Assembly (NCBI RefSeq): GCF_017948455.1
Contig: NZ_JAFFSU010000005.1
Span: 186,001-250,000, forward strand
Origin: Streptomyces sp. GESEQ-4
Lineage (GTDB): Bacteria; Actinomycetota; Actinomycetes; Streptomycetales; Streptomycetaceae
DNA: 64,000 nucleotides
Direction: 5' to 3'
Of this stretch, positions 3,345-58,965 are shown in pieces. The position numbers and the translations under genes are program-made. Under the pieces are notes generated by a model, which was not told the origin of the DNA, did not search any database, and was given only the letters and a program-made list of their open reading frames with translations. Each line of letters starts with the position of its first letter. Position 1 is the first letter of the stretch.

Positions 3345-3376
3345 CACGTGCCTTTCTCACCACGTGCCTTTCTCAC
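3345..3376. repeat. Exact 16-bp tandem duplication
   Basis: The unit CACGTGCCTTTCTCAC occurs twice back to back (3345-3360 and 3361-3376). It covers the stop codon of the E2 gene and the leader of the mobA-like gene. Confidence 0.9.
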
Positions 3377-4950
3377 ATGGTGCGCAGCAGCACCGCCGGC
3401 TGTTCCACGCAGTCCGCCACATGCCGGAGGAAGCCGCCGGCCGTGCCGCCGTCGCACACCCGGTGGTCGAAGGTGAGCGAGAGCTGGACGACCTGCCGCA
3501 CCGCCAGCTCGCCCTGGTGCACCCAGGGCTTGGGGACGATACGGCCGACGCCGAGCATGGCCGCCTCGGGGTGGTTGATGATCGGCGTGGAGCCGTCGAC
3601 CCCGAACACCCCGTAGTTGTTCAACGTGAAGGTCCCGCCCGTGAGTTCCGCGGGCGTCAGCGTCCCCGTCCGGGCCGCCTCCGTCAGCCGGGCGAACTCC
3701 GCGGTCAGCGACTCGGCGTCCCGCGCGTGCGCGTCCCGTACGACGGGCACGACGAGCCCGCGCTCGGTCTGCGCGGCGAAGCCGAGATGGACCTGGTCGA
3801 GCCGGACGATCTCCCTGGCCTCGACATCGACCGTGGAGTTGAGCTCGGGGAACCGGGCGAGGGCGGCCGTGCAGATGCGTGCCAGCAGGGCGAGAAGGGA
3901 GATCTTCGTCCTTCCGGCCCCGTTCATCGCTTCGCGCGCCCGCATCAGCTCCGTCGCGTCGGCGTCCACCCAGCAGGTCGCGTCCGGTATCTCCCGCCGA
4001 CTGCGCGACAACTTGTCGGCGACCGCGCCCCGAATGCCCTTGAGGGGGATACGGGTGCCGCCGGGCGTGGAGGTGACCGGGGCCCCGGCGGGCGCGTGCG
4101 TCACCCGGGCGACGAGCGATTCGGCGGGCGTGTGAGCGAGGGGGGAGTCGGCGGGGGCGCACGGGGCGGCGGCCGTCGGGGCGGCCGAGGAAGGTGTGGT
4201 GGCGGACGGCTCGGTCGCGGACGACATGGCCGTACGCGGCGACGGTCGGGCGGGCGACGCGGCGGCCGCCCGCAGCGCGTACTCCACATCGGCCCGCAGG
4301 ATCAGCCCGTCCGGTCCCGAGCCCGTCAACTCCCGCAGATCCAGCCCGTTCTCCCGAGCGAGCCGCCGCACCAGGGGCGAGATCACGGCGACGGGACCGT
4401 CGGCCCGGTGGCCGTTGCCGGAATCGGGCGCGATGTCTGTGGTGGCGTGGGTGATGTCGAGGGCGTCGGGCGTCGGCGAGGCCGCACTCGTACGAGCGGA
4501 CGGATCCGTCGGAGCCGTACGAGCCGTCGGCCGTACCCTCCGGCGGCGGGCCGGGGCGGCGCCGGTGCCGTAGCCCACGAGCACGTTGCCTGAGCCTTCG
4601 TGGGGGTGCCCAGCCGAGCCGCTGCGCGTGCCCTCACCGGAACCCACACGCGCGTCCTCACGCGAGCCCTCGTCCGATCCCGTGGCCGGACCGCCGGAGG
4701 CCGCCGCCCCCACGGCCACCGTCAACAGCGGCGCCCCCACGGGAAGCTCCGTGCCCTCCTCGCCGAAGCGGGCCGTGACGACGCCGCCGTACGGGCAGGG
4801 CACCTCGACCATTGCCTTGGCCGTCTCGACCTCGACGACCGGCTGATCGACGGTGACGACGTCGCCGACCTGGACCAGCCAGCGCACGATCTCCGCCTCC
4901 GTGAGCCCTTCGCCGAGGTCGGGAAGCTTGAACTCCAACACCTGTGCCAT
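3373..4950 (-). CDS. bkdC: Branched-chain 2-oxoacid dehydrogenase E2 (dihydrolipoyl acyltransferase)
   Basis: About 525 residues. E2 core of the complex that converts branched-chain 2-oxoacids from Val, Leu and Ile to acyl-CoA, feeding branched fatty acid and polyketide starters. Domains in order: lipoyl domain (residues 1-80, lipoylated Lys in ETAKAMVEV), Ala/Pro/Ser-rich linker, E3-binding domain (SPLVRRLARENGLDLREL), a second long Ala/Thr linker, then the catalytic acyltransferase domain ending in FDHRVCDGG with the active His and Asp. The ATG at 4950 shares one base with the E1 beta stop (TGATG), so an upstream ATG at 4968 is less likely. Last gene of a three-gene operon; no E3 (lipoamide dehydrogenase) is in this window. 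Confidence 0.9.
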   Translation of the reverse strand: MAQVLEFKLPDLGEGLTEAEIVRWLVQVGDVVTVDQPVVEVETAKAMVEVPCPYGGVVTARFGEEGTELPVGAPLLTVAVGAAASGGPATGSDEGSREDARVGSGEGTRSGSAGHPHEGSGNVLVGYGTGAAPARRRRVRPTARTAPTDPSARTSAASPTPDALDITHATTDIAPDSGNGHRADGPVAVISPLVRRLARENGLDLRELTGSGPDGLILRADVEYALRAAAASPARPSPRTAMSSATEPSATTPSSAAPTAAAPCAPADSPLAHTPAESLVARVTHAPAGAPVTSTPGGTRIPLKGIRGAVADKLSRSRREIPDATCWVDADATELMRAREAMNGAGRTKISLLALLARICTAALARFPELNSTVDVEAREIVRLDQVHLGFAAQTERGLVVPVVRDAHARDAESLTAEFARLTEAARTGTLTPAELTGGTFTLNNYGVFGVDGSTPIINHPEAAMLGVGRIVPKPWVHQGELAVRQVVQLSLTFDHRVCDGGTAGGFLRHVADCVEQPAVLLRTM

Positions 4951-5954
4951 CAGCTCTGGGCCTCCCATTGCAGACGCCCCACGGCGTCCAGGATCCGGTC
5001 CACGCCAGGCAGGTGGTGACGCTCCAGCATCGGCGGCGGGTAGGGGATGTCGAACCCGGCCACACGCAGCACCGGCGCTTCCAGGTAGTGGAAGCAGCGC
5101 TCCGTGACACGGGCCGCGATCTCCCCGCCCGGGCCGCCGAACCCGCCCGACTCGTGCACGACCACCGCGCGCCCGGTCCGCCGCACCGAAGCGGAGACCG
5201 TCTCGTCGTCGAACGGCACCAGGGAGCGCAGGTCGACGACTTCGAGGTCCCAGCCCTCGGCCCGCGCCGCCTCGGCGGCTTCGAGGCAGACGGGTACGGA
5301 CGGCCCGTACGTGATGAGCGTGGCGCTCCGGCCCGAGCGCCGCACCACCGCGCGGCCTATCGGTTCAACGGCCGTCGGCTCCTCGGGGTTCCAGGACTCC
5401 TTGGACCAGTACAGCCGCTTGGGTTCGAGGACGACGACCGGGTCGTCGGAGGCGATGGCGGCGCGCAGCAGGCCGTAGGCGTCGGCGACGGTGGCGGGCG
5501 TGACGACATGGAGCCCCGGAGTCGCCATGTAGTACGCCTCGGAGGAGTCGCTGTGGTGCTCGACGCCGCCGATGCCTCCGCCGTAGGGGACCCGGATGGT
5601 GATCGGAAGCGGCATCGTCCCGCGTGTGCGGTTGCGCATCCGGGACACATGGCTGATCAGCTGCTCGAAGGCGGGGTAGGCGAACGCGTCGAACTGCATC
5701 TCCACGACCGGCCTGAGGCCGTACATCGCCATGCCGACCGCCGTGCCGAGGATGCCCGCCTCGGCCAGCGGCGTGTCCGTGCAGCGGTCCTCGCCGAACT
5801 CCTTGGCGAGCCCGTCGGTGACCCGGAAGACCCCGCCGAGGGTGCCGACGTCCTCGCCCATGACGTGCACGGCGGGGTCGGCGGCCATGGCGTCGCGCAG
5901 CGCGCGCGTGAGGGCCTGCGCCATGGTCGCGGGTTTGAGGGCGACGGTGGTCAT
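4950..5954 (-). CDS. bkdB: Branched-chain 2-oxoacid dehydrogenase E1 beta subunit
   Basis: 334 residues, the normal length for E1 beta. Starts MTTVALKPATMAQALTRALR. The transketolase pyrimidine domain is seen with GEDVGTLGGVFRVTDGL and EAGILGTAVGMAMYGLRPV, and the C-terminal domain with VVHESGGFGGPG. With E1 alpha it makes the thiamine diphosphate-dependent decarboxylase of the complex. ATG start overlaps the E1 alpha stop as ATGA, and its own stop overlaps the E2 start, so all three subunits are translationally coupled. A pyruvate dehydrogenase-type assignment cannot be fully excluded from sequence alone, but the genomic context with a divergent Lrp-type regulator favours the branched-chain enzyme. 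Confidence 0.9.
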   Translation of the reverse strand: MTTVALKPATMAQALTRALRDAMAADPAVHVMGEDVGTLGGVFRVTDGLAKEFGEDRCTDTPLAEAGILGTAVGMAMYGLRPVVEMQFDAFAYPAFEQLISHVSRMRNRTRGTMPLPITIRVPYGGGIGGVEHHSDSSEAYYMATPGLHVVTPATVADAYGLLRAAIASDDPVVVLEPKRLYWSKESWNPEEPTAVEPIGRAVVRRSGRSATLITYGPSVPVCLEAAEAARAEGWDLEVVDLRSLVPFDDETVSASVRRTGRAVVVHESGGFGGPGGEIAARVTERCFHYLEAPVLRVAGFDIPYPPPMLERHHLPGVDRILDAVGRLQWEAQS

Positions 5955-7087
5955 CGGTGCGTCCCTTCCCGTTCGGCCTCCAGCTCCGCCGCCAACTGCT
6001 CCCGCTGCTCGCGCAGTTGCGGTGTGGGCTCGGCGTACACGTGGGCGAACAGGTCCATGGGGTCGAGCGCCGGGTCCTGGTTCATGTGCTCGCGCAGGTC
6101 GGCGGCGAGCCGCTCGGCGTCCTCGCGCGCGTGCCGGATGCCGTCCTCGTCGATCAGGCCCCGCTCGGTCAACTCCCGCTCCAGGAGGGCGATCGGGTCG
6201 TGTGCGCGCCAGGTCTCGACCTCGGTGTCGGCGCGGTACCGCTTGTCGTCGTCGGCGTTCGTGTGGGCCTCGATGCGGTACGTCACGGCCTCGACCAGCG
6301 TCGGACCGCCGCCCGCGCGCGCGTGCCGTACGGCGTCGCTGAGGACCTCATGCACGGCGGCCGCGTCGTTGCCGTCGACCAGGCGGCCGGGCATGCCGTA
6401 ACCGACGGCCTTGTGGGCCAGCGACGGGGCCGCGGTCTGCTTGGCGAGCGGGACGGAGATCGCGAAGCCGTTGTTCTGGACCAGGAAGACGACCGGGGCC
6501 TGCCATACGGCGGCGAAGTTGAGCGCCTCGTGGAAGTCGCCCTCGCTGGTGCCGCCGTCGCCGACCAGCGCGAGCGCGACCACGTCGTCGCCCTTGAGGC
6601 GGGCGGCGTGCGCGAGGCCCACGGCGTGCGGGAGCTGGGTGGCGAGCGGGGTGCACAGGGGGGCGACGCGGTGCTCGTGCGGGTCGTAGCCGGTGTGCCA
6701 GTCACCGCGCAGAAGCGTCAGAGCCTGCACGGGGTCCACGCCACGGGCGACGGCGGCCAGCGTGTCGCGGTAGCTCGGGAAGAGCCAGTCGCGCTCCTCG
6801 AGGGCGAGCGCGGCGGCCACCTCGCAGGCCTCCTGGCCGGTGCTGGAGGGGTACACGGCGAGGCGGCCCTGCTTGGTGAGGGCGGTGGCCTGCGCGTTGT
6901 ACCGGCGTCCGCGCACCAGATGGGCGTAGAGCCGGCGCAGCAGGGCTGGGTCGGCCTTCGCGGCGGCGTCCGTGCCGAGCACGCGGTACGGCTCCGCGTC
7001 GGGCAGCAGCGGCGCGGGGTCCGTACGGGGCTGCCAGGCGGGCGGCGGCGTTGGCCGATATGCGCCCCGCTGCTCCATGACCGTCAT
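5951..7087 (-). CDS. bkdA: Branched-chain 2-oxoacid dehydrogenase E1 alpha subunit
   Basis: About 378 residues. The ThDP-binding motif region GDGGTSEGDFHEALNFAAVW and NGFAISVP is clear, as are YPSSTGQEACEVA and IEAHTNADD. First gene of the bkdABC operon. ATG at 7087 is preceded by GAGGAGGTGCC, an excellent ribosome binding site; the GTG directly before it (7090) is an alternative. The promoter lies in the 175-bp region shared with the divergent Lrp-type gene. That region holds an ACCGA-N4-TCGGT operator (7148-7161) and a 10-bp inverted repeat (7192-7221). Confidence 0.9.
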   Translation of the reverse strand: MTVMEQRGAYRPTPPPAWQPRTDPAPLLPDAEPYRVLGTDAAAKADPALLRRLYAHLVRGRRYNAQATALTKQGRLAVYPSSTGQEACEVAAALALEERDWLFPSYRDTLAAVARGVDPVQALTLLRGDWHTGYDPHEHRVAPLCTPLATQLPHAVGLAHAARLKGDDVVALALVGDGGTSEGDFHEALNFAAVWQAPVVFLVQNNGFAISVPLAKQTAAPSLAHKAVGYGMPGRLVDGNDAAAVHEVLSDAVRHARAGGGPTLVEAVTYRIEAHTNADDDKRYRADTEVETWRAHDPIALLERELTERGLIDEDGIRHAREDAERLAADLREHMNQDPALDPMDLFAHVYAEPTPQLREQREQLAAELEAEREGTHR

Positions 7088-7147
7088 CACGGCACCTCCT
7101 CATGGGAGTGGCTTGGAGAGGCGCGTCGGATGTGATGCGCCTCACCT

Positions 7148-7161
7148 ACCGATTGTTCGGT
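7148..7161. promoter_or_regulatory. ACCGA-N4-TCGGT operator in the bkd promoter region
   Basis: ACCGA TTGT TCGGT, a 5-bp perfect inverted repeat with 4-base spacer. It lies about 60 bp upstream of bkdA. The same half-sites and spacing occur at 9935-9948 and 14715-14728, next to phenylacetate genes, which suggests one TetR-family regulator for all three. Binding is inferred. Confidence 0.55.
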
Positions 7162-7191
7162 CGTCGGCACATTTTGGCTACAGGCACCTTC

Positions 7192-7221
7192 AGGCTGTGG
7201 ACAAACGGTTCTCCACAGCCT
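7192..7221. promoter_or_regulatory. 10-bp inverted repeat carrying two DnaA-box-like sequences
   Basis: AGGCTGTGGA at 7192-7201 pairs perfectly with TCCACAGCCT at 7212-7221. The arms contain TGTGGACAA (7196-7204, a perfect Streptomyces DnaA box on the minus strand) and TTCTCCACA (7209-7217). It sits just upstream of the Lrp-type gene, so it may instead be that regulator's autoregulatory site. Confidence 0.4.
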
Positions 7222-7262
7222 GAGATGGACGCAGTACGTCCATGGTAGAGAGGCGGGGGGAC

Positions 7263-7760
7263 ATGGCACCTGAACAAATGGCCGAAGGTCCCGAGGGCGG
7301 CCCCCTGCCGCCCGCGCGGCCCCTCGACGCCATCGATCAGGACATCCTGCAGATGCTCCAGGCGGACGGCCGCGCGTCGATACGGTCGGTCGCCGAACGT
7401 GTCCATGTCTCGCGCGCCAACGCCTACGCGCGCATCAACCGCCTCATCGAGGACGGCGTCATCCGCGGCTTCGGGGCCCGCGTGGACCATGAACGCGCGG
7501 GCCAGGGGACATCGGCGTACATCACCCTGAAGATCGTCCAGAACACCTGGCGCACGGTGCGCGAGCAGCTCAAGCAGCTCCCCGGGGCAGCCCATATCGC
7601 CCTGGTGGGCGGAGACTTCGACGTGCTGCTGCTCGTGCACACGTCCGACAACCGGGCGCTGCGGGAGCTGGTACTGACCCGCATCCAGGCGATCCCCGAG
7701 GTGCTCAGCACCCGCACGCTGCTGGTGTTCGAGGAGGAGGACCTGGAGCCGCAGGGCTGA
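7263..7760 (+). CDS. Lrp/AsnC family transcriptional regulator
   Basis: About 165 residues. N-terminal winged helix-turn-helix of the AsnC type (LDAIDQDILQMLQADGRASI, then VSRANAYARINRLIEDGVI) and a C-terminal RAM ligand-binding domain (HIALVGGDFDVLLLVHTSD). Proteins of this family sense amino acids or their 2-oxoacids. Placed divergently from bkdABC, it is the likely regulator of that operon, like BkdR in other bacteria. ATG at 7263 follows AGGCGGGGGG; an in-frame ATG at 7242 has no comparable ribosome binding site. Confidence 0.88.
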   Translation: MAPEQMAEGPEGGPLPPARPLDAIDQDILQMLQADGRASIRSVAERVHVSRANAYARINRLIEDGVIRGFGARVDHERAGQGTSAYITLKIVQNTWRTVREQLKQLPGAAHIALVGGDFDVLLLVHTSDNRALRELVLTRIQAIPEVLSTRTLLVFEEEDLEPQG

Positions 7761-7773
7761 CCCGGACGTCGGT

Positions 7774-8364
7774 CTAGGAGGACTTGCGCAGTCCCCCGAA
7801 CACCAACTGCGCGACCGCGTCGGCCACTTCGCGCTCGTTCATGCCGCGCCCGTCCGGCCGGTACCACTCGACGATCGAGTTGATCATCCCGAAGACCAGC
7901 CGGGTCGCCAGACGCACCTCCACATCACCGCGCACATCCCCGTCGGCGGCTGCCGCCTTCAGCAGCTCGGCGACCCGGTGGTCGAAGTCGCGGCGCTGCT
8001 CCAGGGCCCACCGCTCGGTGTCCGTGTTGCCGCGCACGCGCAGCAGCAGCGTCACATACGGCAGTTCGGCGATCAGCACCTCGACCATGCGCCGCACGAC
8101 GTACTCCAGGCGCTCGGCGGCACGCCCCACGCGCGCGTGCTCCTCGTCGAGGATCCCGAAGAGCCCGTCCAGCGCCCGGCTCACCGCGCGGCGCAGCAGC
8201 TCCTCCTTGCCGGCGACGTGGTGGTAGATCGACGACTTGGAGATGCCGGCCGCTTTGGAGAGGTGCTCCATGGAGGTGCCGTCGTAGCCGCGCTCGTTGA
8301 AGACCCGCACGGCGACGGTGAGCAGCGACTCCGGGGTGTACGTGTCCCGCTTCGCGGTGGTCAT
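7774..8364 (-). CDS. TetR family regulator, candidate phenylacetate repressor (PaaR-like)
   Basis: 196 residues. N-terminal TetR helix-turn-helix: SLLTVAVRVFNERGYDGTSM, then LSKAAGISKSSIYHHVAGKE. The C-terminal ligand domain is helical. ATG at 8364 overlaps the stop of the 3-hydroxyacyl-CoA dehydrogenase gene (ATGA), so the two are cotranscribed. In Corynebacterium a TetR protein, PaaR, represses phenylacetate genes in response to phenylacetyl-CoA; the location here inside a paa block makes the same role plausible. Its likely operator is ACCGA-N4-TCGGT, found at 9935, 14715 and 7148. The long open frame reading through upstream is a shadow of the neighbour. Confidence 0.85.
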   Translation of the reverse strand: MTTAKRDTYTPESLLTVAVRVFNERGYDGTSMEHLSKAAGISKSSIYHHVAGKEELLRRAVSRALDGLFGILDEEHARVGRAAERLEYVVRRMVEVLIAELPYVTLLLRVRGNTDTERWALEQRRDFDHRVAELLKAAAADGDVRGDVEVRLATRLVFGMINSIVEWYRPDGRGMNEREVADAVAQLVFGGLRKSS

Positions 8365-9878
8365 GACGTGCTGCCCTCCCGCCTGTCGGTGGCGTACGCA
8401 TGGCGGTAGAGCGCGAGCGAGGGCGCGTAACGTCCCGAGGGGTCGCGCATATGCAAGTCGTCGAGGAGGGCGTACGCCCAGTTGCGGCCGAGTCTGCGGC
8501 TCCATTCGAAGGGGCCCAGGGGGTAGTTCACGCCCAGCCGCATCGCGGTGTCGATGTCCTCCTCGGTGGCCACCCCCTTGGCGACGGCGTCGTGCGCCAG
8601 GTCGACGATCCGCGCGACCGTGCGGGCGACGATCATGCCGGGTACGTCGCCGATGACGCTGACGTCCTTGCCGAGTGCCTGGAACAGGCCGATCGCCTCG
8701 GTGAGGGTCTGCGAGGCGGTGTCCTGGGAGGCGGACAGGGCGATACGGGTGGCCCTGCGGTAGTCGAGCGCGAGGTCGAAGTAGACGACGTCCCGGAACT
8801 CCACGGAGGTCTGGCCGTCGGCGAGCGCCAGCTGTCCGCCGCCCGGCAGCACCAGGCGGGTGCCGTGGTCCTCGTCCTCCTCGCGGACGGCGATGCCCGC
8901 CTCGCGTATCAGCGCGAGCAGTTCGGCGGCGGGGCCCAGGTCGCCCTCGGCGACGACGTACGCGGGCGGCTGGGCGCGTTCCGCGGTGTGCGGCTCGGCG
9001 GGCTCGGCGCCCTCCTGGTAGTCGTACCAGCCCTGTCCGGTCTTGCGGCCGAGCCGGCCCGACTCGACCAGGCGCCGCTGGGCGAGCGAGGGCGTGAAGC
9101 GCACGTCCTGGAAGAAGGACTGCCACACGGAGTGCGTCACCGACTCGTTGACGTCCTGGCCGATGAGGTCGGTCAGCTCGAAGGCGCCCATCTTGAAGCC
9201 GCCGGACTCGTGCAGGATCGCGTCGATGGTGGCGGGGTCGGCGCCCTGGGCCTCGTAGACCGCGAAGGCCTCGGCGTAGAAGGGCCGTGCGATGCGGTTG
9301 ACGATGAAGCCGGGGGTGTCGGCGCAGGCGACCGGGGTCTTGCCCCAGGCGCGCGCCGTCTCGTACGCGCGCGTGGCCATCGTGACGTCGGTGGCGTGCC
9401 CGGAGACGACTTCGACCAGCGGCAGCAGCGGGGCCGGGTTGAAGAAGTGCAGGCCGACGAGACGGCCGGGGTTGCCGAGCGCGCCGCCGATGGCCGTCAC
9501 CGACAGGGACGAGGTGTTGGTGGCGAGCAGACAGTCCGCGCCGACGATGCCTTCCAGCTCGCGGAAGAGGTCCTGCTTGACGTCGAGCCGCTCCAGGACG
9601 GCCTCGACGACCAGGGCACAGTCCGCGAGGTCGGTGAGGCTCTGGGCGGGCAGCAGACGGGCGCGTGCCGCGTCCCGGTCGGCGGCGGTGAGCCGGTCCT
9701 TCTCGACGAGCCGGTCGAGGCGGGCGCCGATCGCGGCGGACGCCTCCTGGGCCCGCCCGGGGACGGTGTCGTACAGCCGCACGGGGTGGCCGGCGACCAG
9801 CGCGACCTGGGCGATGCCCTGGCCCATGGTGCCGGTGCCGACGACGGCCACGGGGCTGCTGAGGTCGAGTGCTGTCAT
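8361..9878 (-). CDS. paaH: 3-hydroxyacyl-CoA dehydrogenase, phenylacetate pathway type
   Basis: 505 residues, the length of PaaH (PaaC in some nomenclatures), which oxidises 3-hydroxyadipyl-CoA in the lower phenylacetate pathway. The Rossmann motif VVGTGTMGQGIAQVAL is at residue 12, ATNTSSLSVTAI in the middle of the NAD domain, and two C-terminal dehydrogenase domains follow (FIVNRIARPFYAEAF and MIVARTVARIVDLAHDAV). Linker region between them is poorly conserved. ATG at 9878. Divergent from paaN over a 148-bp region with an ACCGA-N4-TCGGT operator. The TetR gene overlaps its 3' end. Function within phenylacetate degradation is inferred from family length and neighbours. Confidence 0.85.
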   Translation of the reverse strand: MTALDLSSPVAVVGTGTMGQGIAQVALVAGHPVRLYDTVPGRAQEASAAIGARLDRLVEKDRLTAADRDAARARLLPAQSLTDLADCALVVEAVLERLDVKQDLFRELEGIVGADCLLATNTSSLSVTAIGGALGNPGRLVGLHFFNPAPLLPLVEVVSGHATDVTMATRAYETARAWGKTPVACADTPGFIVNRIARPFYAEAFAVYEAQGADPATIDAILHESGGFKMGAFELTDLIGQDVNESVTHSVWQSFFQDVRFTPSLAQRRLVESGRLGRKTGQGWYDYQEGAEPAEPHTAERAQPPAYVVAEGDLGPAAELLALIREAGIAVREEDEDHGTRLVLPGGGQLALADGQTSVEFRDVVYFDLALDYRRATRIALSASQDTASQTLTEAIGLFQALGKDVSVIGDVPGMIVARTVARIVDLAHDAVAKGVATEEDIDTAMRLGVNYPLGPFEWSRRLGRNWAYALLDDLHMRDPSGRYAPSLALYRHAYATDRREGSTS

Positions 9879-9934
9879 GTGCGCGATCCTCCCGCACGGG
9901 GTTTTCCACAGATGCGGCGGACCCCCTTGTCCCG

Positions 9935-9948
9935 ACCGATCGTTCGGT
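9935..9948. promoter_or_regulatory. ACCGA-N4-TCGGT operator between paaH and paaN
   Basis: ACCGA TCGT TCGGT in the divergent promoter region. The surrounding 16-mer CCGACCGATCGTTCGG (9932-9947) recurs as its exact reverse complement upstream of paaA, so the two paa operators are essentially the same sequence. It is a likely TetR-type binding site. Confidence 0.65.
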
Positions 9949-10026
9949 TACTCTAACTCTGTCCGGCTGTTTCCGCCCAGGTCATGAGCTCAAAGAAGAG
10001 TTCTTGAGACGAGGAGTTGGTCCCGT

Positions 10027-11718
10027 ATGGCCGCCGAACTCACCGCGCACCAGCTGATCGCCGCTCACCGGCCCACCCTCGACCAGGCGCTGGAAGCGAT
10101 CCGCACGCGCGCGTACTGGTCTCCGCACCCCGAGCACCCCAAGGCCTACGGCGAGCAGGGCAGTCTGGACGCGGCAGCCGGCAAGGCCGCCTTCGACGCC
10201 CTTCTGGGCACCCGCCTCGACCTCGGCCAGCCCGGCACGGACGGCTTCACGGGCGGCGAGGTCTCGCCGTACGGCATCGAGCTGGGCGTCACGTATCCGC
10301 ACGCGGACATCGAGGTCCTGCTGCCCGCGATGAAGGCCGGTCAGCGCGCCTGGCGGGACGCCGGCGCGGAGATCCGGGCCGTGGTGTGCCTGGAGATTCT
10401 CAAGCGCATCAGCGACCGGACGCACGAGTTCGCGCACGCGGTCATGCACACCTCCGGCCAGGCGTTCATGATGGCGTTCCAGGCGGGCGGCCCGCATGCG
10501 CAGGACCGTGGCCTGGAGGCGGTGGCGTACGCGTATGTGGAGCAGGTCCGCACCCCCGACACCGCGGAGTGGACCAAGCCCCAGGGCAAGCGCGACCCGC
10601 TCGCGCTCACCAAGCAGTTCACGCCGGTCCCGCGCGGGATCGCCCTGCTGATCGGCTGCAACACCTTCCCGACGTGGAACGGCTATCCGGGCCTGTTCGC
10701 CTCCCTGGCCACCGGAAACGCGGTCCTGGTCAAGCCCCACCCGCGCGCGGTGCTGCCGCTCGCGCTCACCGTGCAGGTCGCGCGCCAGGTGCTGGCCGAG
10801 GCGGGCTTCGACCCCAACCTGGTGGCGCTGGCCGCCGAGCGCCCTGACGAGGGCATCGCCAAGACCCTGGCCGTGCGCCCGGAGATCCGGATCATCGACT
10901 ACACCGGTTCGACGGCCTTCGGTGACTGGCTGGAGGCCAACGCCCGCCAGGCGCAGGTCTACACGGAGAAGGCGGGCGTCAACTCGGTGCTCGTGGAGTC
11001 GACCGGCGACTACAGGGGGATGCTGTCCAACCTGGCCTTCTCGCTGTCCCTGTACAGCGGTCAGATGTGCACCACCCCGCAGAACCTGCTCATCCCGCGC
11101 GACGGCATCCGCACCGAGGAGGGCCCCCGGACCTTCGACGAGGTCGTCGCCGACCTCGCCCGCGCGGTCGACGGCCTGCTCGGCGACGACGCGCGCGCCA
11201 ACGCGCTGCTCGGCGCGATCGTCAATCCCGATGTGAAGGCTCGTCTGGAGGCGGCGGCGAGCCTCGGCGAAGTCGCCCTCGCCTCACGGGAGATCAGCAA
11301 CCCGGAGTTCCCGGACGCGGTCGTCCGTACGCCGGTGATCGTGAAGCTGGACGGGACCAAGCCGGACGCCGAGGCCGCGTACATGAGCGAGTGCTTCGGG
11401 CCCGTCTCCTTTGCCGTCGCGGTCGACTCGGCGTCCGATGCGGTGGAGTTGCTGCGGCGGACGATCCGCGAGAAGGGTGCGATGACCGTCGGTGCGTACA
11501 CCTCTGACGAGGAGGTCGAGCAGGCGGTTGTCGAGGTCTGCCTGGAGGAGTCGGCGCAGTTGTCGCTCAACCTCACCGGTGGGGTGTATGTGAACCAGAC
11601 GGCCGCGTTCTCCGACTTCCATGGGTCGGGGGGCAATCCGGCGGCGAACGCTGCGTTGTGTGATGGGGCGTTCGTGGCCAACCGGTTCCGGGTTGTTGAG
11701 GTGCGGCGGGAGGCCTAA
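10027..11718 (+). CDS. paaN: Phenylacetic acid degradation aldehyde dehydrogenase PaaN
   Basis: 563 residues. An aldehyde dehydrogenase superfamily protein of the PaaN type, which has no MaoC-like hydratase domain, unlike E. coli PaaZ. Seen: YTGSTAFGDWLEANA in the NAD region, EKAGVNSVLVES with the general-base Glu, and the catalytic Cys in SGQMCTTPQNL. The likely role is oxidation of the semialdehyde formed after ring opening; substrate is inferred. ATG at 10027 with an upstream GAGGAGTTGG ribosome binding site. The gene is monocistronic, ending in a region with a GCGCCCC palindrome, and is divergent from paaH. Confidence 0.85.
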   Translation: MAAELTAHQLIAAHRPTLDQALEAIRTRAYWSPHPEHPKAYGEQGSLDAAAGKAAFDALLGTRLDLGQPGTDGFTGGEVSPYGIELGVTYPHADIEVLLPAMKAGQRAWRDAGAEIRAVVCLEILKRISDRTHEFAHAVMHTSGQAFMMAFQAGGPHAQDRGLEAVAYAYVEQVRTPDTAEWTKPQGKRDPLALTKQFTPVPRGIALLIGCNTFPTWNGYPGLFASLATGNAVLVKPHPRAVLPLALTVQVARQVLAEAGFDPNLVALAAERPDEGIAKTLAVRPEIRIIDYTGSTAFGDWLEANARQAQVYTEKAGVNSVLVESTGDYRGMLSNLAFSLSLYSGQMCTTPQNLLIPRDGIRTEEGPRTFDEVVADLARAVDGLLGDDARANALLGAIVNPDVKARLEAAASLGEVALASREISNPEFPDAVVRTPVIVKLDGTKPDAEAAYMSECFGPVSFAVAVDSASDAVELLRRTIREKGAMTVGAYTSDEEVEQAVVEVCLEESAQLSLNLTGGVYVNQTAAFSDFHGSGGNPAANAALCDGAFVANRFRVVEVRREA

Positions 11719-11760
11719 GAGCTCGGGGGTTCGGTGATCGCGCGGCTGCCGGTGCGTTGT

Positions 11761-11798
11761 GGCTTGTCGCGCAGTTCCCCGCGCCCCTATAGGGGCGC
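11761..11798. terminator. Dispersed intergenic repeat with hairpin between convergent genes
   Basis: Contains CGCGCAGTTCCCCGCGCCCC followed by a palindrome GCGCCCCTATAGGGGCGC (11781-11798). It lies between convergent paaN and trmH-like genes and overlaps the last codons of the latter. The same GCGCAGTTCCCCGCGCCCC core reappears at about 21200. This element is common between convergent Streptomyces genes and probably works as a bidirectional terminator. Confidence 0.6.
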
Positions 11799-12542
11799 TT
11801 CCGTGCCCGTGCTCCAGTGGTAGAGGGTCATTCCCACGCTCGTCGCCAAGTTGTAGCTGGAGACCTGCGGGCGCATCGGCAGGGAGAGCAAATGGTCGGT
11901 ACGCGCGCGTAGGTCGGCCGACAGGCCGCTGCGCTCGGAGCCGAAGGCGAGAACGGCGTCGTCCGGGAGCTTCACGCCCCGGATGTCGTCGCCCTCGGGG
12001 TCCAGGGCGAACAGCGGCCCGGACGGCAGTTCGTCGACGGTCAGCCGCTCCACGGCGGTCGCGAAGTGCAGGCCCGCTCCGCCGCGTACGACCGTGGGGT
12101 GCCACGGGTCGAGGGTGCCGGTGGTGACCACTCCGGTCGCGCCGAAACCGGCGGCCAGACGGATGACGGCGCCCACGTTGCCGAGGTTGCGCGGGTTGTC
12201 GAGGACGACGACGGGTGCGGTGCGGGGTGAGTGCGCCAGCTTCTCCAGGTTGGCGGCACGGGGCGGTCGTACGGCCAGGGCCGCCACCGCGGTCGGATGC
12301 GGGCGCGGCACGAGGGACCTGTACGTCGGCTCCGGGACCTGCGTGAGCAGCGCGGCCAGGGTGTCTCGTACGTCCGGAGCCAGCTCGTCGGCCAGGGCGA
12401 GTGTGGCCGCCCGGTCGACGGCCACCGCCACCGGGACAGCGGCTTTGAAACGCACCGCGTGCTTGAGGGCATGGAAGCCGTCGAGCAGGACGGAGGCGTC
12501 GGCGAGCCGGTGCCAGGAGGTCACGGGATCGGCGGCGGTCAT
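11787..12542 (-). CDS. TrmH/SpoU family RNA 2'-O-methyltransferase
   Basis: 251 residues. The C-terminal half is a SPOUT methyltransferase with the three family motifs: NPRNLGNVGAVIRLAAGFG (motif 1), FGSERSGLS (motif 2) and LPMRPQVSSYNLATSVGMTL (motif 3, slightly divergent from the usual SLNVS). The enzyme transfers a methyl group from SAM to a ribose 2'-OH of tRNA or rRNA; the target is unknown. The N-terminal domain lacks a recognisable L30e-like motif. ATG at 12542 overlaps the stop of the HTTM gene (ATGA), making it the third gene of a DUF5819-HTTM-TrmH operon. Confidence 0.85.
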   Translation of the reverse strand: MTAADPVTSWHRLADASVLLDGFHALKHAVRFKAAVPVAVAVDRAATLALADELAPDVRDTLAALLTQVPEPTYRSLVPRPHPTAVAALAVRPPRAANLEKLAHSPRTAPVVVLDNPRNLGNVGAVIRLAAGFGATGVVTTGTLDPWHPTVVRGGAGLHFATAVERLTVDELPSGPLFALDPEGDDIRGVKLPDDAVLAFGSERSGLSADLRARTDHLLSLPMRPQVSSYNLATSVGMTLYHWSTGTEAPL

Positions 12543-13783
12543 GCCGTGAAGCCTACGTGCGTGTGCTCGGGGTTCTCCGGGTTGTCCGGGTTGTCAGGGG
12601 CTGACGCGTCCCCGGTCCGCTGGCCCGGCACCTTGGGGCCGTCCTTGCCCCGGAACACGCGTCCACGCGCGCGTGCGGCCCAGTCGCCCAGCCGACGCAG
12701 GAACGACGTCGGCAGGAATACCGCGTCCGCCGCGATCATCGCCAGGGAGAAGAAGGGCAGTCCGAGGACGACGGCGATCACGGCGTGCTCGGTGATCATC
12801 GCGGCGAGCAGGACGTTCTTGACGCGTCGATGGAACAGCGTGAACGGGAAGGCGACCTGGACGGCCACGGTGCCGTATGTCACGAGCATCACCGCCGTGC
12901 CGCTGGCCGACAGCAGGTCGGCGAGGGCGGGCCAGGGTGAGAAGTAGTCGAGGTGCAGGGGGTAGTAGACGGCGGTGCCGTCCTGCCAGCGGGAGCCCTG
13001 GATCTTGTACCAGCCGGCCGTCGCGTAGATCAGACAGGCCTCGGCCATGATCACGAGCAGGGCGCCGTTGTGGACGATGTTGCCGACCACATCGAGCAGG
13101 ATCCGCGGCTCGTCACTCCTGGCCAGGCGTCCGACGACCCACCACACGGCCAGGGCTACCCACACAGCCCAGATGATCACCGGCACGGTCAAGTCGCCGT
13201 CGAGCTGGCCCGCCGCGGTCACCACCACCAGCACCAGCCCGAGCGCCCCCCACAGGGCGGGCCCCACCCGGTCCACCACACGCTCTCCACGCGCGCGTGC
13301 CGCACGCACGCGCCGTTCCCGGCGCTCGTCCAGCGACCACACCTGGCCACAGCGCGTGAAGACGAGGTACATGCACATCAGGTGCAGGACGTTGTCGCCG
13401 CCGTCCCCCATGAAGATGCTGCGGTTCTGCAGCGAGAGCACGCCGACCATGAAGAGCACGGACATGGTGCGGGTGCGCCAGCCCAGCAGCAGCAGGACGC
13501 TCGTGAGGACGGCGAGCGCGTACACGGCCTCGAACCAGAGCCGGCCGTCGGACCACATCAGGGCCGTGAAGGCGCCGTTCGTCGAGATCAGTTGCTCGGC
13601 GAGTCCAAATGTCCAGGGGCCGTCGGGGCCGTACAGCTCCTGGCGGTGGGGCAGCTCCCGCAGCAGGAAGAGCAGCCAGGTCGCGCTGAACCCGATGCGG
13701 ATGACGGCGGTCTGGTACGGGCCGAGGGCGGCCCCGGTGACACGGGCGATGCCGCCCGACACGGCCTGCGCGTAGCGGTTCAC
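12539..13783 (-). CDS. HTTM domain membrane protein (vitamin K gamma-carboxylase-like)
   Basis: About 414 residues, many hydrophobic helices. The family is the horizontally-transferred transmembrane (HTTM) domain related to vitamin K-dependent gamma-carboxylase. Seen: RIGFSATWLLFLLRELPHR at the first helix, WSDGRLWFEAVYALAVLTS, GDNVLHLMCMYLVFTRCG, and AGWYKIQGSRWQDGTAVYYP. The C-terminal tail is soluble and Pro/Asn rich. The GTG at 13783 overlaps the DUF5819 stop (GTGA), so the longer open frame is not used. Bacterial HTTM proteins have no established general role; a redox or maturation activity in the membrane is inference. Confidence 0.8.
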   Translation of the reverse strand: MNRYAQAVSGGIARVTGAALGPYQTAVIRIGFSATWLLFLLRELPHRQELYGPDGPWTFGLAEQLISTNGAFTALMWSDGRLWFEAVYALAVLTSVLLLLGWRTRTMSVLFMVGVLSLQNRSIFMGDGGDNVLHLMCMYLVFTRCGQVWSLDERRERRVRAARARGERVVDRVGPALWGALGLVLVVVTAAGQLDGDLTVPVIIWAVWVALAVWWVVGRLARSDEPRILLDVVGNIVHNGALLVIMAEACLIYATAGWYKIQGSRWQDGTAVYYPLHLDYFSPWPALADLLSASGTAVMLVTYGTVAVQVAFPFTLFHRRVKNVLLAAMITEHAVIAVVLGLPFFSLAMIAADAVFLPTSFLRRLGDWAARARGRVFRGKDGPKVPGQRTGDASAPDNPDNPENPEHTHVGFTA

Positions 13784-14529
13784 CGGGCGCCTCCCCCGAG
13801 GTCGCCGGCCGAGACCGACCACCAGGGCAGCACCCGGAACACCGGCTGGTCGGAGACCTGCTCCGCGCTCCACTCGGGCGGGCGGACGTTGGTGGTGCGG
13901 GAGCGCAGCTGGACCCGCTCGATCGTCTCGCCCCGCCCGGCCGCGTTGTCGCGGTCGAGGCGCAGCAGCACGATCCGGCGCAGATAGGTCTCCGAGAGGG
14001 CGCCGCGCAGGCCCGACGGGCGGTTCTCGGCGTCGTGGGTGGCGAGGAAGAAGTCCCACGCGCGACGCAGTTCGTTCTGCTGGGTGTGGCTCGGCAGCAG
14101 ATTGCCGTCGATGGCCCGGCCGTCCTGCGCGGACAGGTCGTACCAGCCGGTGGTCTCCCTGCCGCCGTCGGGCCTGCCGATCTGGGCGCGGACCTGGACG
14201 GCGATGTTCTGCTGCAGCGGGTTGGGCGCGAAGAGCTTCCAGTTCTGCTCGAACTCGGGGTAGATCCAGTCGTCTATCGCGCGGCCGTGCTGCTTGGTGA
14301 CCGTGTTCGACGGGGCGACGTGCAGGAACACCATGCCGATGTGGACACAGACGGCGACCGCGACGCAGGCGAGCGCGAGCGCGACGCCGATCTGGTAGCG
14401 GAGGGAGAGCGCGGCGAGAGCGGTGCGGGGGCCGGCGGCCGGTTCGCCGGACGTCTCGCGCCCGTCCGGTTCGACCACCCCGCCCGCCCCGTCCGGGGCG
14501 TTCGAGCCACCGTCGTACGCGTCGTCCAT
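13780..14529 (-). CDS. DUF5819 family protein
   Basis: About 249 residues. N-terminal acidic cytoplasmic segment, one hydrophobic helix (IGVALALACVAVAVCVHIGM) at about residues 53-75, then an extracytoplasmic domain with WIYPEFEQNWKLFAPNPLQQ and a Trp-rich pattern. ATG at 14529 is preceded by GGGGCGG. The family pairs with HTTM proteins, as here with a 4-bp overlap, which suggests that they form one membrane unit. The domain resembles the C-terminal soluble part expected of larger HTTM proteins; that comparison is inference. Function unknown. The gene is divergent from paaA. Confidence 0.75.
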   Translation of the reverse strand: MDDAYDGGSNAPDGAGGVVEPDGRETSGEPAAGPRTALAALSLRYQIGVALALACVAVAVCVHIGMVFLHVAPSNTVTKQHGRAIDDWIYPEFEQNWKLFAPNPLQQNIAVQVRAQIGRPDGGRETTGWYDLSAQDGRAIDGNLLPSHTQQNELRRAWDFFLATHDAENRPSGLRGALSETYLRRIVLLRLDRDNAAGRGETIERVQLRSRTTNVRPPEWSAEQVSDQPVFRVLPWWSVSAGDLGGGAR

Positions 14530-14636
14530 TCCGCCCCGTTCCCGATTCCGCTCAGTCTTCCGGCCACCTGGACGGGAACGGTACTCAGCCCCGCGCGCCC
14601 GGCACACCCCATCGGCCCGTCCGCCGGTCGGGCCGG

Positions 14637-14669
14637 TTGTCCACAGGTGGTCCCGGCAGGTTATCCACA
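14637..14669. promoter_or_regulatory. Two DnaA boxes upstream of paaA
   Basis: TTGTCCACA (14637-14645) and TTATCCACA (14661-14669), both on the plus strand, 24 bp apart. They match the Streptomyces and E. coli DnaA-box consensus respectively. They lie in the divergent DUF5819/paaA region. Confidence 0.5.
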
Positions 14670-14714
14670 GCGGTTGACACCTTACGGCGGCCGTCACACC
14701 ATGGAATCGCACGA

Positions 14715-14728
14715 ACCGAACGATCGGT
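14715..14728. promoter_or_regulatory. ACCGA-N4-TCGGT operator upstream of paaA
   Basis: ACCGA ACGA TCGGT, 42 bp before the paaA start codon. The 16-mer around it is the exact reverse complement of the operator between paaH and paaN. It probably binds the TetR protein encoded at 7774-8364. Confidence 0.65.
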
Positions 14729-14770
14729 CGGGAGCAGGTTCCAGGCAGAGCCCAAGGTCGAGGGGGCCCC

Positions 14771-15795
<1,025 letters not shown>

Positions 15796-15799
<4 letters not shown>

Positions 15800-16083
15800 C
15801 GAATACCGACTGGCCCCTGTGGGAGGTCTTCGTACGCTCCCGCCGCGGTCTCTCGCACACCCACGCCGGCAGCCTGCACGCGCCGGACGCGGAGCTCGCC
15901 CTGCGCAACGCGCGCGATCTGTACACCCGGCGCGGCGAGGGAGTCTCGATCTGGGTCGTGCCGTCGTCCGCGATCACGGCGTCCTCACCGGACGAGAAGG
16001 ACCCGTTCTTCGAGCCGGCCGCCGACAAGCCGTACCGGCACCCGACGTTCTACGAGATCCCGGAAGGGGTGAAGCACCTGTGA
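15796..16083 (+). CDS. paaB: Phenylacetyl-CoA epoxidase subunit PaaB
   Basis: 95 residues, standard length. Small subunit that bridges PaaA-PaaC heterodimers in the epoxidase complex. Typical start of the family is seen: [20 protein letters not shown], followed by [23 protein letters not shown] overlaps the paaA stop as ATGA, and its stop overlaps the paaC GTG, so stoichiometric translation by coupling is likely. Confidence 0.93.
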
Positions 16084-16799
16084 CCGTCGCCGTTCCCACC
16101 ACGGCCGCGCTCGCCCTCGGCGACGACGCGCTGGTGCTCTCCCACCGCCTGGGCGAGTGGGCGGGCCACGCGCCCGTGCTCGAGGAGGAGGTCGCCCTCG
16201 CCAATATCGCCCTCGACCTGCTGGGCCAGGCCCGGATCCTGCTGTCGATGGTCGGCGACGAGGACGAGTTGGCCTATCTGCGCGAAGAGCGCGCCTTCCG
16301 CAACCTCCAGCTGGTCGAGCAGCCGAACGGCGACTTCGCCCACACCATCGTCCGCCAGCTGTACTTCTCCACCTACCAGCACCTGCTCTACGCCCGCCTC
16401 GCCACCGCGGACGGCCCCTTCGCGCCGCTCGCCGCGAAGGCCGTCAAAGAGGTCGCCTACCACCGCGACCACGCCGAGCAGTGGACCCTGCGGCTCGGCG
16501 ACGGCACTGAGGTCAGTCATGAGCGGACGCAGCACGCGTGCGAGGCGCTGTGGCGGTTCACCGGCGAGATGTTCCGGCCGGTCGAGGGCCTGGATGTGGA
16601 CGCCGACGAGCTGCAGGCCGCCTGGCTGAAGTCCGTGTCAAGCATCCTCGACCGCGCCACCCTGACCGTCCCCGAAGGGCCGCGGTCCGGTGCGTGGGCC
16701 GCCGGGGCGGGCCGTCAAGGCCTGCACACCGAGCCCTTCGGGCGGATGCTCGCCGAGATGCAGCATCTGCACCGCAGCCACCCGGGGGCGTCATGGTGA
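16080..16799 (+). CDS. paaC: Phenylacetyl-CoA epoxidase subunit PaaC
   Basis: 239 residues. Structural, catalytically inactive ferritin-like subunit paired with PaaA. Motifs: DDALVLSHRLGEWAGHAP, LEEEVALANIALDLLGQAR and EVAYHRDHAEQWTLRLGDGT. GTG at 16080 overlaps the paaB TGA as GTGA, which rules out the longer open frame upstream. The paaD start lies inside its last codons. Confidence 0.93.
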   Translation: MTVAVPTTAALALGDDALVLSHRLGEWAGHAPVLEEEVALANIALDLLGQARILLSMVGDEDELAYLREERAFRNLQLVEQPNGDFAHTIVRQLYFSTYQHLLYARLATADGPFAPLAAKAVKEVAYHRDHAEQWTLRLGDGTEVSHERTQHACEALWRFTGEMFRPVEGLDVDADELQAAWLKSVSSILDRATLTVPEGPRSGAWAAGAGRQGLHTEPFGRMLAEMQHLHRSHPGASW

Positions 16800-17308
16800 C
16801 CCTCACCGCCCTGGAGGCGGAACTCCTCGAGGTCGCCGGTGCGGTGCCCGACCCCGAACTGCCCGTGCTCACCCTCCAGGAGCTGGGCGTCCTGCGCGCG
16901 GTGCACGTCCGCGGCACGGACTCGGTGGAGGTCGAGCTGACCCCGACGTACACCGGCTGCCCGGCGATCGAGGCGATGTCCCTGGACATAGAGCGGGCGC
17001 TGCACGAGCACGGCATAGGGCAGGTGTCGGTCCGTACGGTGCTCTCGCCCGCCTGGTCGACGGACGACATCTCGGCCGAAGGGCGCCGCAAACTGCGGGA
17101 GTTCGGCATCGCACCGCCGCGGGTGCGTGAGGCGGCCGAGCCGATGCTGATCGAGCTGGGCCCGACCCGCACCACGGATCCCGTTCTCTGCCCGCACTGC
17201 GGATCGGCGGACACCGAGCTGCTCAGCCGGTTCTCCTCCACCGCGTGCAAGGCGCTGCGGCGGTGTCTGTCCTGCCGCGAACCGTTCGACCACTTCAAGG
17301 AGTTGTGA
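16793..17308 (+). CDS. paaD: PaaD, iron-sulfur/maturation protein of the phenylacetyl-CoA epoxidase
   Basis: 171 residues. The N-terminal MIP18/DUF59-like domain contains VPDPELPVLTLQELGVLR and TPTYTGCPAIEAMSLDI; the C-terminal part carries a four-Cys zinc-type knuckle, CPHCGSAD with a second pair in CLSCREPFDHFK. PaaD is needed for epoxidase activity, probably by helping metal or Fe-S assembly. ATG at 16793 overlaps the end of paaC; the adjacent GTG at 16796 is an equally coupled alternative. Confidence 0.92.
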   Translation: MVTLTALEAELLEVAGAVPDPELPVLTLQELGVLRAVHVRGTDSVEVELTPTYTGCPAIEAMSLDIERALHEHGIGQVSVRTVLSPAWSTDDISAEGRRKLREFGIAPPRVREAAEPMLIELGPTRTTDPVLCPHCGSADTELLSRFSSTACKALRRCLSCREPFDHFKEL

Positions 17309-18366
17309 TGGCCCGCTTCCACACGCTCCCGGTGGCCGCCGTCGACCGGCTCACCGACGACTCGGTGGCCCTCACCCTCACCGTGCCGCCGGAACTGCGG
17401 GAGGAGTACCGCCACGCCCCCGGCCAGCATCTCGCGCTGCGCCGCAGGGCCGACGGTACGGAGATACGGCGCACCTACTCGATCTGCTCCCCGGCGCCCG
17501 GCCCCGAGGGTCCACGGACCCTGCGGGTGGGGGTGCGGCTGGTGGAGGGCGGGGCCTTCTCGACGTACGCGCTCAAGGAGATCAACGTCGGTGACGAGCT
17601 GGAGGTGATGACCCCGGCGGGCCGTTTCACGCTGGAGCCCGCGGCCGGCCTGTATGCCGCGATCGTGGGCGGCAGTGGCATTACCCCGGTTCTGTCGATC
17701 GTCTCGACACTGCTGGCGCGTGAGCCCGGGGCCCGGTTCTGCCTGATCCGCAGCGACCGTACGACCGCGTCGACGATGTTCCTGGAGGAGGTCGCCGACC
17801 TGAAGGACCGCTACCCCGAGCGGTTGCAGCTGGTGACGGTGCTCTCCCGGGAGGAACAGCAGGCGGGTCTGCCGTCCGGGCGGCTCGACCAGGACCGGCT
17901 CACCGGGCTGCTGCCGGCGCTGCTGCCGGTGGACGACGTGGCGGGCTGGTTCCTGTGCGGGCCGTACGGGCTGGTGCAGGGGGCCGAGCGGGCCCTGCGC
18001 GGACTCGGAGTGGCGCGGACCCGTATCCACGAGGAGATCTTCCACGTGGACCCCTTGACCACCCTCGCGACTCAGGTCCCGGCCCCCGCCCACAGCGCCG
18101 TGACGGCACGGCTCGACGGCCGCGGCGGAACCTGGCCCGTCCAGGACGGCGAGTCCCTGCTGGAGACGGTCCTGCGCAACCGGCCCGACGCGCCCTACGC
18201 CTGCAAGGGCGGGGTGTGCGGGACATGCCGGGCCTTCCTGGTCTCCGGCGAGGTGCGGATGGACCGCAACTTCGCGCTGGAGCCGGAGGAGACGGAGTCG
18301 GGGTATGTGCTGGCGTGCCAGTCGCATCCGGTGACGGAGAAGGTGGAGCTGGACTTCGACCGCTGA
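17308..18366 (+). CDS. paaE: Phenylacetyl-CoA epoxidase reductase PaaE
   Basis: 352 residues. Delivers electrons from NADPH to PaaA. Domains: FAD-binding barrel with RRTYSICSP (RxYS motif), NAD(P)-binding domain with GGSGITPVLSI, and a C-terminal plant-type [2Fe-2S] domain CKGGVCGTCRAFL with the last Cys in YVLACQSHP. The ATG shares one base with the paaD stop (TGATG). Last gene of the operon; a GCCCC-TTC-GGGGC hairpin follows 17 bp after the stop. Confidence 0.94.
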   Translation: MARFHTLPVAAVDRLTDDSVALTLTVPPELREEYRHAPGQHLALRRRADGTEIRRTYSICSPAPGPEGPRTLRVGVRLVEGGAFSTYALKEINVGDELEVMTPAGRFTLEPAAGLYAAIVGGSGITPVLSIVSTLLAREPGARFCLIRSDRTTASTMFLEEVADLKDRYPERLQLVTVLSREEQQAGLPSGRLDQDRLTGLLPALLPVDDVAGWFLCGPYGLVQGAERALRGLGVARTRIHEEIFHVDPLTTLATQVPAPAHSAVTARLDGRGGTWPVQDGESLLETVLRNRPDAPYACKGGVCGTCRAFLVSGEVRMDRNFALEPEETESGYVLACQSHPVTEKVELDFDR

Positions 18367-54918: not shown

Positions 54919-56049
54919 TCAGCCGCTGAGGCGGACCGGCATGATCAGGTACTTGTAGGCCTCGTCCGCCTCGGCGTCCAGCGCCGGCTTGCCGCTGAGC
55001 AGCGCGGGCTTGGTGGACGTCGTGAAGGACAGCTGCGCGACCGGGGAGTCGATGGCGCTCAGGCCGTCCAGCAGGAAGGTCGGGTTGAAGGCGATCGACA
55101 CGTCATCGCCCTCCAGCTGCGCGTCCACCCGCTCCACAGCCTGTGCGTCGTCGCTGGAACCGGCCTCCAGGATCAGCACGCCCTGCTCGAAGCTCAGCCG
55201 CACAGGAGTGTTGCGCTCGGCGACCAGGGCCACGCGCTTGACGGCCTCCACGAAGGGGGCGGTCTCGATCACGGCGACCGAGTTGAACTCTGTCGGGAAC
55301 AGCGAGCGGTACTTCGGGAGGTCGCCCTCCAGCAACCGCGTCGTCGTACGTCGGCCGGCGCCCTCGAAACCGATCAGGCCCTCGCCCGCGCCCGAGCCGG
55401 ACAGCGCCAGGATCACGCTGTCGCCGCTGGTCAGCGCCTTGGCGGTGTCCAGGAGCGTCTTGGCGGGGACCAGGGCGACCGCGGACGCCTCCGGGTTCTC
55501 CGGCTTCCACAGGAACTCACGGACCGCGAAGCGGTAGCGGTCGGTGGAGGCCAGGGTGACCCGGTCGCCCTCGATCTCGATGCGCACACCGGTGAGGACG
55601 GGAAGCGTGTCGTCACGGCCTGCGGCGATGGCCACCTGGGAGGCGGCGGAGGCGAAGACCTCGCCGGGGACGGTGCCGGTCGCCGACGGCATCTGCGGCA
55701 GCGCCGGGTACTCCTCCACAGGCAGTGTGTGGAGTGTGAACCGGGAGGAGCCGCAGACCACCGTCGCCCGTACACCGTCTGTGGAAATCTCCACCGGGCG
55801 GTTGGGCAGGGCGCGGGAGATGTCGGCGAGCAGCCTGCCGGAGACGAGGACCGTGCCCTCCTCCTCGACCTCGGCCTCCACCGACACGCGTGCGGAGACC
55901 TCGTAGTCGAAGCTGGACAGGCTCAGCTGGCCGTCCTCGGCCTTCAGCAGCAGGCCGGCGAGGACAGGCGCCGGCGGACGGGCCGGGAGGCTGCGCGCCG
56001 CCCAGGCCACTGCCTCCGCGAGTACGTCGCGTTCCACCCGGATCTTCAC
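54919..56049 (-). CDS. dnaN: DNA polymerase III beta sliding clamp DnaN
   Basis: 376 residues, three-domain clamp. Starts VKIRVERDVLAEAVAWAARS. Internal motifs LLKAEDGQLSLSSFDYEVS and VLTGVRIEIEGDRVTLASTD are typical, and the C-terminus ends KYLIMPVRLSG. GTG at 56049 lies 9 bp after GGAGG. The longer open frame from 56376 runs into oriC and is rejected. Confidence 0.96.
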   Translation of the reverse strand: MKIRVERDVLAEAVAWAARSLPARPPAPVLAGLLLKAEDGQLSLSSFDYEVSARVSVEAEVEEEGTVLVSGRLLADISRALPNRPVEISTDGVRATVVCGSSRFTLHTLPVEEYPALPQMPSATGTVPGEVFASAASQVAIAAGRDDTLPVLTGVRIEIEGDRVTLASTDRYRFAVREFLWKPENPEASAVALVPAKTLLDTAKALTSGDSVILALSGSGAGEGLIGFEGAGRRTTTRLLEGDLPKYRSLFPTEFNSVAVIETAPFVEAVKRVALVAERNTPVRLSFEQGVLILEAGSSDDAQAVERVDAQLEGDDVSIAFNPTFLLDGLSAIDSPVAQLSFTTSTKPALLSGKPALDAEADEAYKYLIMPVRLSG

Positions 56050-56159
56050 TGTTGCCGCCTCCTGCTGTTGCCGGCGCTTCTCGGCCTGCCTGGCTTCGTC
56101 GTCTGTCTCGGTGTGCTCGGTCCCTGTGAGGGGAACGACACCGGGGAACAGTCTGACGC

Positions 56160-58819: not shown

Positions 58820-58910
58820 AGGGCACGCTCTCTCGTGGGTCCCACGAACGTGTGGTTGTGGGACGGATTGGGATTCACATCGGATGGGACGGGCGAATCG
58901 GAGTCCAGCC

Positions 58911-58965
58911 AAGGTAGTCAGGGCGACGGGTGCGGTTCAAGTTGTTGTCCCCAGGCTGTGGATAG
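58911..58965 (-). promoter_or_regulatory. dnaA promoter with two DnaA boxes
   Basis: On the minus strand TTGAAC (58940-58935), 18-bp spacer and TACCTT (58916-58911) form a good HrdB-type promoter about 92 bp before the GTG. Two DnaA boxes, TTGTCCCCA (58945-58953) and TGTGGATAG (58957-58965), lie just upstream of the -35 and suit autoregulation, as described for S. lividans dnaA. Confidence 0.75.

Follow-up and report, generated by a model that had tools for sequence, protein, structure and literature searches.

Why should a palindrome that marks two phenylacetate (paa) promoters also stand in front of bkdABC, an operon for a 2-oxoacid dehydrogenase? The question arises from a stretch of 64,000 nucleotides of Streptomyces sp. 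GESEQ-4 (hereafter the window), for which a sequence-only reading had reported the pattern ACCGA-N4-TCGGT at the bkd promoter, between paaH and paaN and ahead of paaABCDE, and had assigned all three copies to a single TetR protein encoded nearby. The copies occur exactly where it had placed them (7148-7161, 9935-9948 and 14715-14728), and they are arranged among the genes as follows.

3373 to 4968, minus strand: bkdC, E2.
4950 to 5954, minus strand: bkdB, E1-beta.
5951 to 7090, minus strand: bkdA, E1-alpha of 2-oxoacid dehydrogenase.
7148 to 7161: bkd operator ACCGATTGTTCGGT (reverse complement ACCGAACAATCGGT), between bkdA and bkdR.
7177 to 7182, minus strand: putative -10 of the bkdA promoter, TGTAGC, at a fixed offset to the operator and to TTGTCC.
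7199 to 7204, minus strand: putative -35 of the bkdA promoter, TTGTCC, at a conserved offset to the operator.
7263 to 7760, plus strand: bkdR, Lrp/AsnC-family regulator, divergent from bkdA; first in-frame ATG at 7242.
7774 to 8364, minus strand: paaR, TetR-family repressor, SCO3833 orthologue.
8361 to 9878, minus strand: paaH, 3-hydroxyacyl-CoA dehydrogenase.
9927 to 9932 and 9949 to 9954: putative paaN promoter, -35 TTGTCC and -10 TACTCT respectively.
9935 to 9948: paaH/paaN operator ACCGATCGTTCGGT, between the putative -35 and -10 of paaN.
10027 to 11718, plus strand: paaN, aldehyde dehydrogenase of the paa pathway (TIGR02288, above cut-off), divergent from paaH-paaR.
14674 to 14679, plus strand: putative -35 of the paaA promoter, TTGACA.
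14715 to 14728: paaA operator ACCGAACGATCGGT, just downstream of the putative transcription start.
14771 to 18366, plus strand: paaABCDE, phenylacetyl-CoA epoxidase operon.

The genes for E1-alpha, E1-beta and E2 thus lie together in one operon, divergent from bkdR, and since the end of paaH overlaps the start of paaR these two were read as one operon as well. SCO3829-3832 are bkdC2, bkdB2, bkdA2 and bkdR (PMC12323332), and by gene order we took the bkdR of the window as the SCO3832 orthologue. Given a -35 of TTGTCC and a -10 of TGTAGC, the bkd operator would fall at about +10 to +23. The same intergenic region also carries, at 7190-7223, an inverted repeat (TCAGGCTGTGGACAA / TTCTCCACAGCCTGA) with 15-nt arms set 4 nt apart, which is strongly conserved in Streptomyces and is lost in some distant genera, where the TTGTCC part alone is left.

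A further repeated element of the window is the DnaA-box-like TTNTCCACA, found 15 times between 3211 and 63010 against 0.56 expected, and present also at all three operator promoters. Its copies are often paired (7196/7209, 14637/14661, 22767/22785, 37703/37744 and 62984/63002). The oriC region, at about 56.2-56.9 kb, is flanked by dnaN (54919-56376) and dnaA (56909-58912); in S. coelicolor, clusters of DnaA boxes are reported around oriC.

Within the window ACCGA-N4-TCGGT occurs four times, compared with 0.10 expected in shuffled sequence. The fourth copy (17353-17366) was dropped as an operator, as it sits inside the coding sequence of paaE and is missing in most of the relatives' loci. The two paa copies had been said to share a 16-mer as exact reverse complements: exact they are, and the shared stretch is longer, 20 bases (9930-9949 on the plus strand and 14714-14733 on the minus strand). 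When all operators are read on one strand, the bkd site is ACCGAACAATCGGT and both the paaH/paaN and paaA sites are ACCGAACGATCGGT.

Whether such a pattern could be a common motif of GC-rich DNA, arising by chance, depends on how strictly it is defined. A genome scan, which the sequence-only reading had proposed as a check on this point, counted 30 places for the loose N4 form over the 9.24 Mb of the genome and 5 for a reversed-letter control; in that form the pattern is indeed common elsewhere, and because most of the 26 places beyond the window's four fall within coding sequence (as called by a simple GC-frame caller) we rejected it as a genome-wide regulon marker. The tight core ACCGAACRATCGGT, in contrast, occurs exactly three times in the 9.24 Mb, at the bkd, paaH/paaN and paaA promoters. 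Allowing one-base variants of this core added two places only, one inside a small ORF resembling a secreted protein (C5:169057) and one that precedes a WhiB-like ORF by about 450 bp (C34:19469); no aromatic or branched-chain gene follows either of them, and both were dropped as extra sites.

The bkd site proved to be a family-wide feature. All 80 Streptomyces loci having this TetR gene carry ACCGAACAATCGGT in the bkdA-bkdR intergenic region, and the paaH/paaN site is ACCGAACGATCGGT in every one of them but one, the nearest relative. Across 200 Streptomycetaceae genomes (17 genera) the bkd 14-mer was found in 191, nearly always as a single copy, while a reversed control gave zero; a PaaR orthologue is encoded in 192 of these genomes, and in 387 of 395 in a wider draw. 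The 20 sites retrieved from roughly a dozen further genera all lay between bkdA and bkdR, upstream of bkdA; these sequences were picked by the exact 14-mer, so that its invariance among them is by construction. Their flanks have diverged, the commonest base at a position being shared by a mean of 56% of the sequences. The uniqueness of the core, its conservation across the family and the divergence of the flanks exclude a chance origin of the palindrome, for which the 30 loose matches would be the only point in favour and to which we assign next to no probability. The presence of the bkd site throughout the family is largely due to shared ancestry.

Moreover, the distance from the operator to the bkdA start codon varies from 29 to 159 nt (20 distant sites and six further loci), whereas the upstream TTGTCC stands 43 nt from the operator in each of the 81 close relatives, and all but one of the 27 distant members have it at 43 or 44 nt. 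A spacing that is fixed to the promoter and variable to the start codon is the expected look of a promoter operator.

As for the protein that would bind these sites, the product of 7774-8364 matches the solved structure of S. coelicolor SCO3833 (2iai) over its full length (E 2e-103) and has the domains TetR_N and TetR_C_24, i.e. an N-terminal DNA-binding domain and a TetR-type C-terminal one. Its NCBIfam matches are all under cut-off and none is named PaaR. The gene is linked to paa genes both here and in distant genomes, and the paa promoters of its own locus contain ACCGA-N4-TCGGT. Judged by operator and neighbourhood, this is a PaaR-type repressor. Other actinomycete families have PaaR orthologues of about 45-63% identity, often encoded next to paaA; ACCGAACATTCGGT-type sites lie upstream of paaA in five loci (L146, L148, L150, L155 and L157) and of paaN in a sixth (L149), and in one genome (G242) such a site precedes paaK, the phenylacetate-CoA ligase gene. 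Up to 10 kb from the PaaR orthologues of these families, no gene for a bkd dehydrogenase turned up. Orthology, half-sites, conservation and joint loss (described below) lend good support to the proposal that this one TetR protein would serve all three sites.

In the arrangement that we consider very probable, PaaR would bind one 14-bp palindrome at three promoters and repress the bkdABC 2-oxoacid dehydrogenase operon together with paaABCDE and the divergent paaH-paaR and paaN units, the latter implying autocontrol of PaaR. The operator would lie just downstream of the transcription start at bkdA and paaA, and between -35 and -10 at paaN. Phenylacetyl-CoA would release PaaR from all three promoters, and BkdR would act separately, so that bkdABC would receive two inputs, branched-chain amino acids through BkdR and phenylacetyl-CoA through PaaR. 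We infer binding, repression and effector at these sites from sequence comparison. The centre of the bkd site is always CA/TG while that of the Streptomyces paa sites is CG, and given this difference the affinity of PaaR for the bkd site may differ from that for the paa sites; CA-centred sites occur upstream of paaA in other families.

The most obvious competitor for the bkd palindrome is BkdR itself. BkdR, of the Lrp type, is a reported regulator of the bkd operon, known from S. coelicolor and S. albus (PMC8176718), and the palindrome is situated between its gene and bkdA; likeness to the paa sites would then be due to convergence or shared ancestry. This hypothesis has to accommodate the recurrence of the core at two paa promoters, with no further copy in the genome, and similar sites beside PaaR in families without a bkd dehydrogenase gene within 10 kb. 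It also meets a telling exception: the one genome found with bkd but without PaaR (G010) keeps bkdR and bkdA side by side, with a BkdR of 76% identity, yet its operator is cut down to one half-site, GAAGCATCCTCGGT. No PaaR or PaaA match was found in this genome, which is 93% complete, and on the contig PaaR is absent from the place beside bkdR that it usually occupies. BkdR is thus an unlikely binder of the palindrome, and we give this explanation very little weight. It is also conceivable, if rather doubtful, that PaaR acts on the plus-strand promoter of bkdR and not on bkdA, for the divergent region holds a single operator. However, the fixed spacing is to the putative promoter facing bkdA, and no conserved bkdR promoter was located; PaaR control of both genes is possible. 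The preferred reading of direct PaaR control of bkdABC agrees with the spacing and with the loss in G010.

Other unusual genomes delimit the association. One genome (G174) has PaaR and keeps a one-mismatch bkd site, and three (G015, G018 and G029) are without PaaR, PaaA and a close bkdABC orthologue. Two genomes that seemed to have the site without PaaR (G004 and G031) were rejected as such, their 14-mers being unrelated repeats with no paa or bkd gene nearby; in G004 the operator-like 14-mers belong by chance to an array of repeats of about 138 bases each (L205, 9603-10716). Two loci come from genus g5: in G020 the genes bkd, bkdR, paaR and paaN follow one another, yet bkd lacks the site, while in G031 paaN directly continues bkdABC on one strand (L201, 8888-14086), an operon-like join of both pathways. 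These g5 loci indicate that linkage of the genes extends further than the operator does, and that the bkd-PaaR link is not universal.

Control of paa genes by PaaR in Streptomyces is already known. In S. pristinaespiralis, PaaR (SSDG_03033; Zhao et al. 2015, cited in PMC10933834) is described as a TetR repressor of paa, in the same genus as the strain studied here; the putative site listed for it in that review is 5'-AACGA-N4-TCGGT-3', probably ACCGA, and the review, as far as its account of this regulator goes, names no bkd target. The sequence-only reading knew of no described link between bkd and a PaaR-type repressor, and a full-text literature search, with Zhao et al. 2015 outside its scope, likewise gave no description, so a PaaR site at bkd appears undescribed.

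Outside the genus, the operator of Burkholderia cenocepacia PaaR, ACCGACCGGTCGGT, lies in the core promoter and was proven by mutation to be required for repression (PMC2770484). That protein is also a TetR repressor and its half-sites equal those found here, but its described targets are paa promoters and its operator centre is CCGG (PMC2770484). Phenylacetyl-CoA releases PaaR in B. cenocepacia and Thermus thermophilus (PMC9493321). The PaaR of T. thermophilus HB8, TetR-type and with phenylacetyl-CoA as effector, has a different consensus as quoted in that article, CNAACGNNCGTTNG. Another TetR protein of T. thermophilus, PfmR (TTHB023), has the predicted site or consensus TACCGACCGNTNGGTN and was proposed to control phenylacetate and fatty-acid genes jointly (PMC7022988), although there the second pathway is another one and the organism is distant. 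On the branched-chain side, PccD of Saccharopolyspora erythraea is mentioned in PMC8176718 as a TetR-type regulator directly controlling a BCDH operon, but it is tied there to propionyl-CoA, and the site listed for it (T/ATGACGG/CTGT/CTGT/A, PMC10933834) is unlike the operator described here. For S. coelicolor an MtrA site has been predicted upstream of bkdA2 (GTCACACCCGTGGCGA, PMC12323332); it was set aside, being a different sequence from the bkd operator.

What the cell might gain from placing bkdABC under PaaR leads to the enzyme. Around a second bkd cluster (bkdFGH, C45:175311), whose E1-alpha is 42% identical, a search of 18 kb (168001-186000) allowing two mismatches gave no operator. 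Compared with solved structures, the E1-alpha of bkdABC reaches 206 bits with pyruvate dehydrogenase and a lower score, 180 bits, with BCKDH. In the pristinamycin pathway the pyruvate-dehydrogenase-like PglB/PglC were suggested to convert phenylpyruvate to phenylacetyl-CoA (PMC7089894). By analogy, bkdABC might (also) act as a phenylpyruvate dehydrogenase, producing phenylacetyl-CoA from phenylalanine and so feeding the paa pathway, a tentative proposal to which we give somewhat less than even chances. No phenylacetate-CoA ligase PaaK passed the TIGR02155 cut-off in the strain's own genome, though paaABCDE is present; its best relative (C1:226702-227931, L240) reaches 145/646 bits. Since 44 of 61 family genomes have PaaK, its absence here says little in general for the phenylpyruvate route. 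If BkdABC did make phenylacetyl-CoA, PaaR would control both the supply and the degradation of its own effector, and this would account for Streptomyces having two bkd clusters with a PaaR operator at one only.

The bkd operon supplies acyl-CoA precursors for polyketides, and the control proposed here would add a keto-acid dehydrogenase operon to the targets of a known aromatic-acid repressor in nearly a whole family of antibiotic producers. It also makes an old puzzle directly testable, namely why Streptomyces retains two "branched-chain" dehydrogenase clusters.
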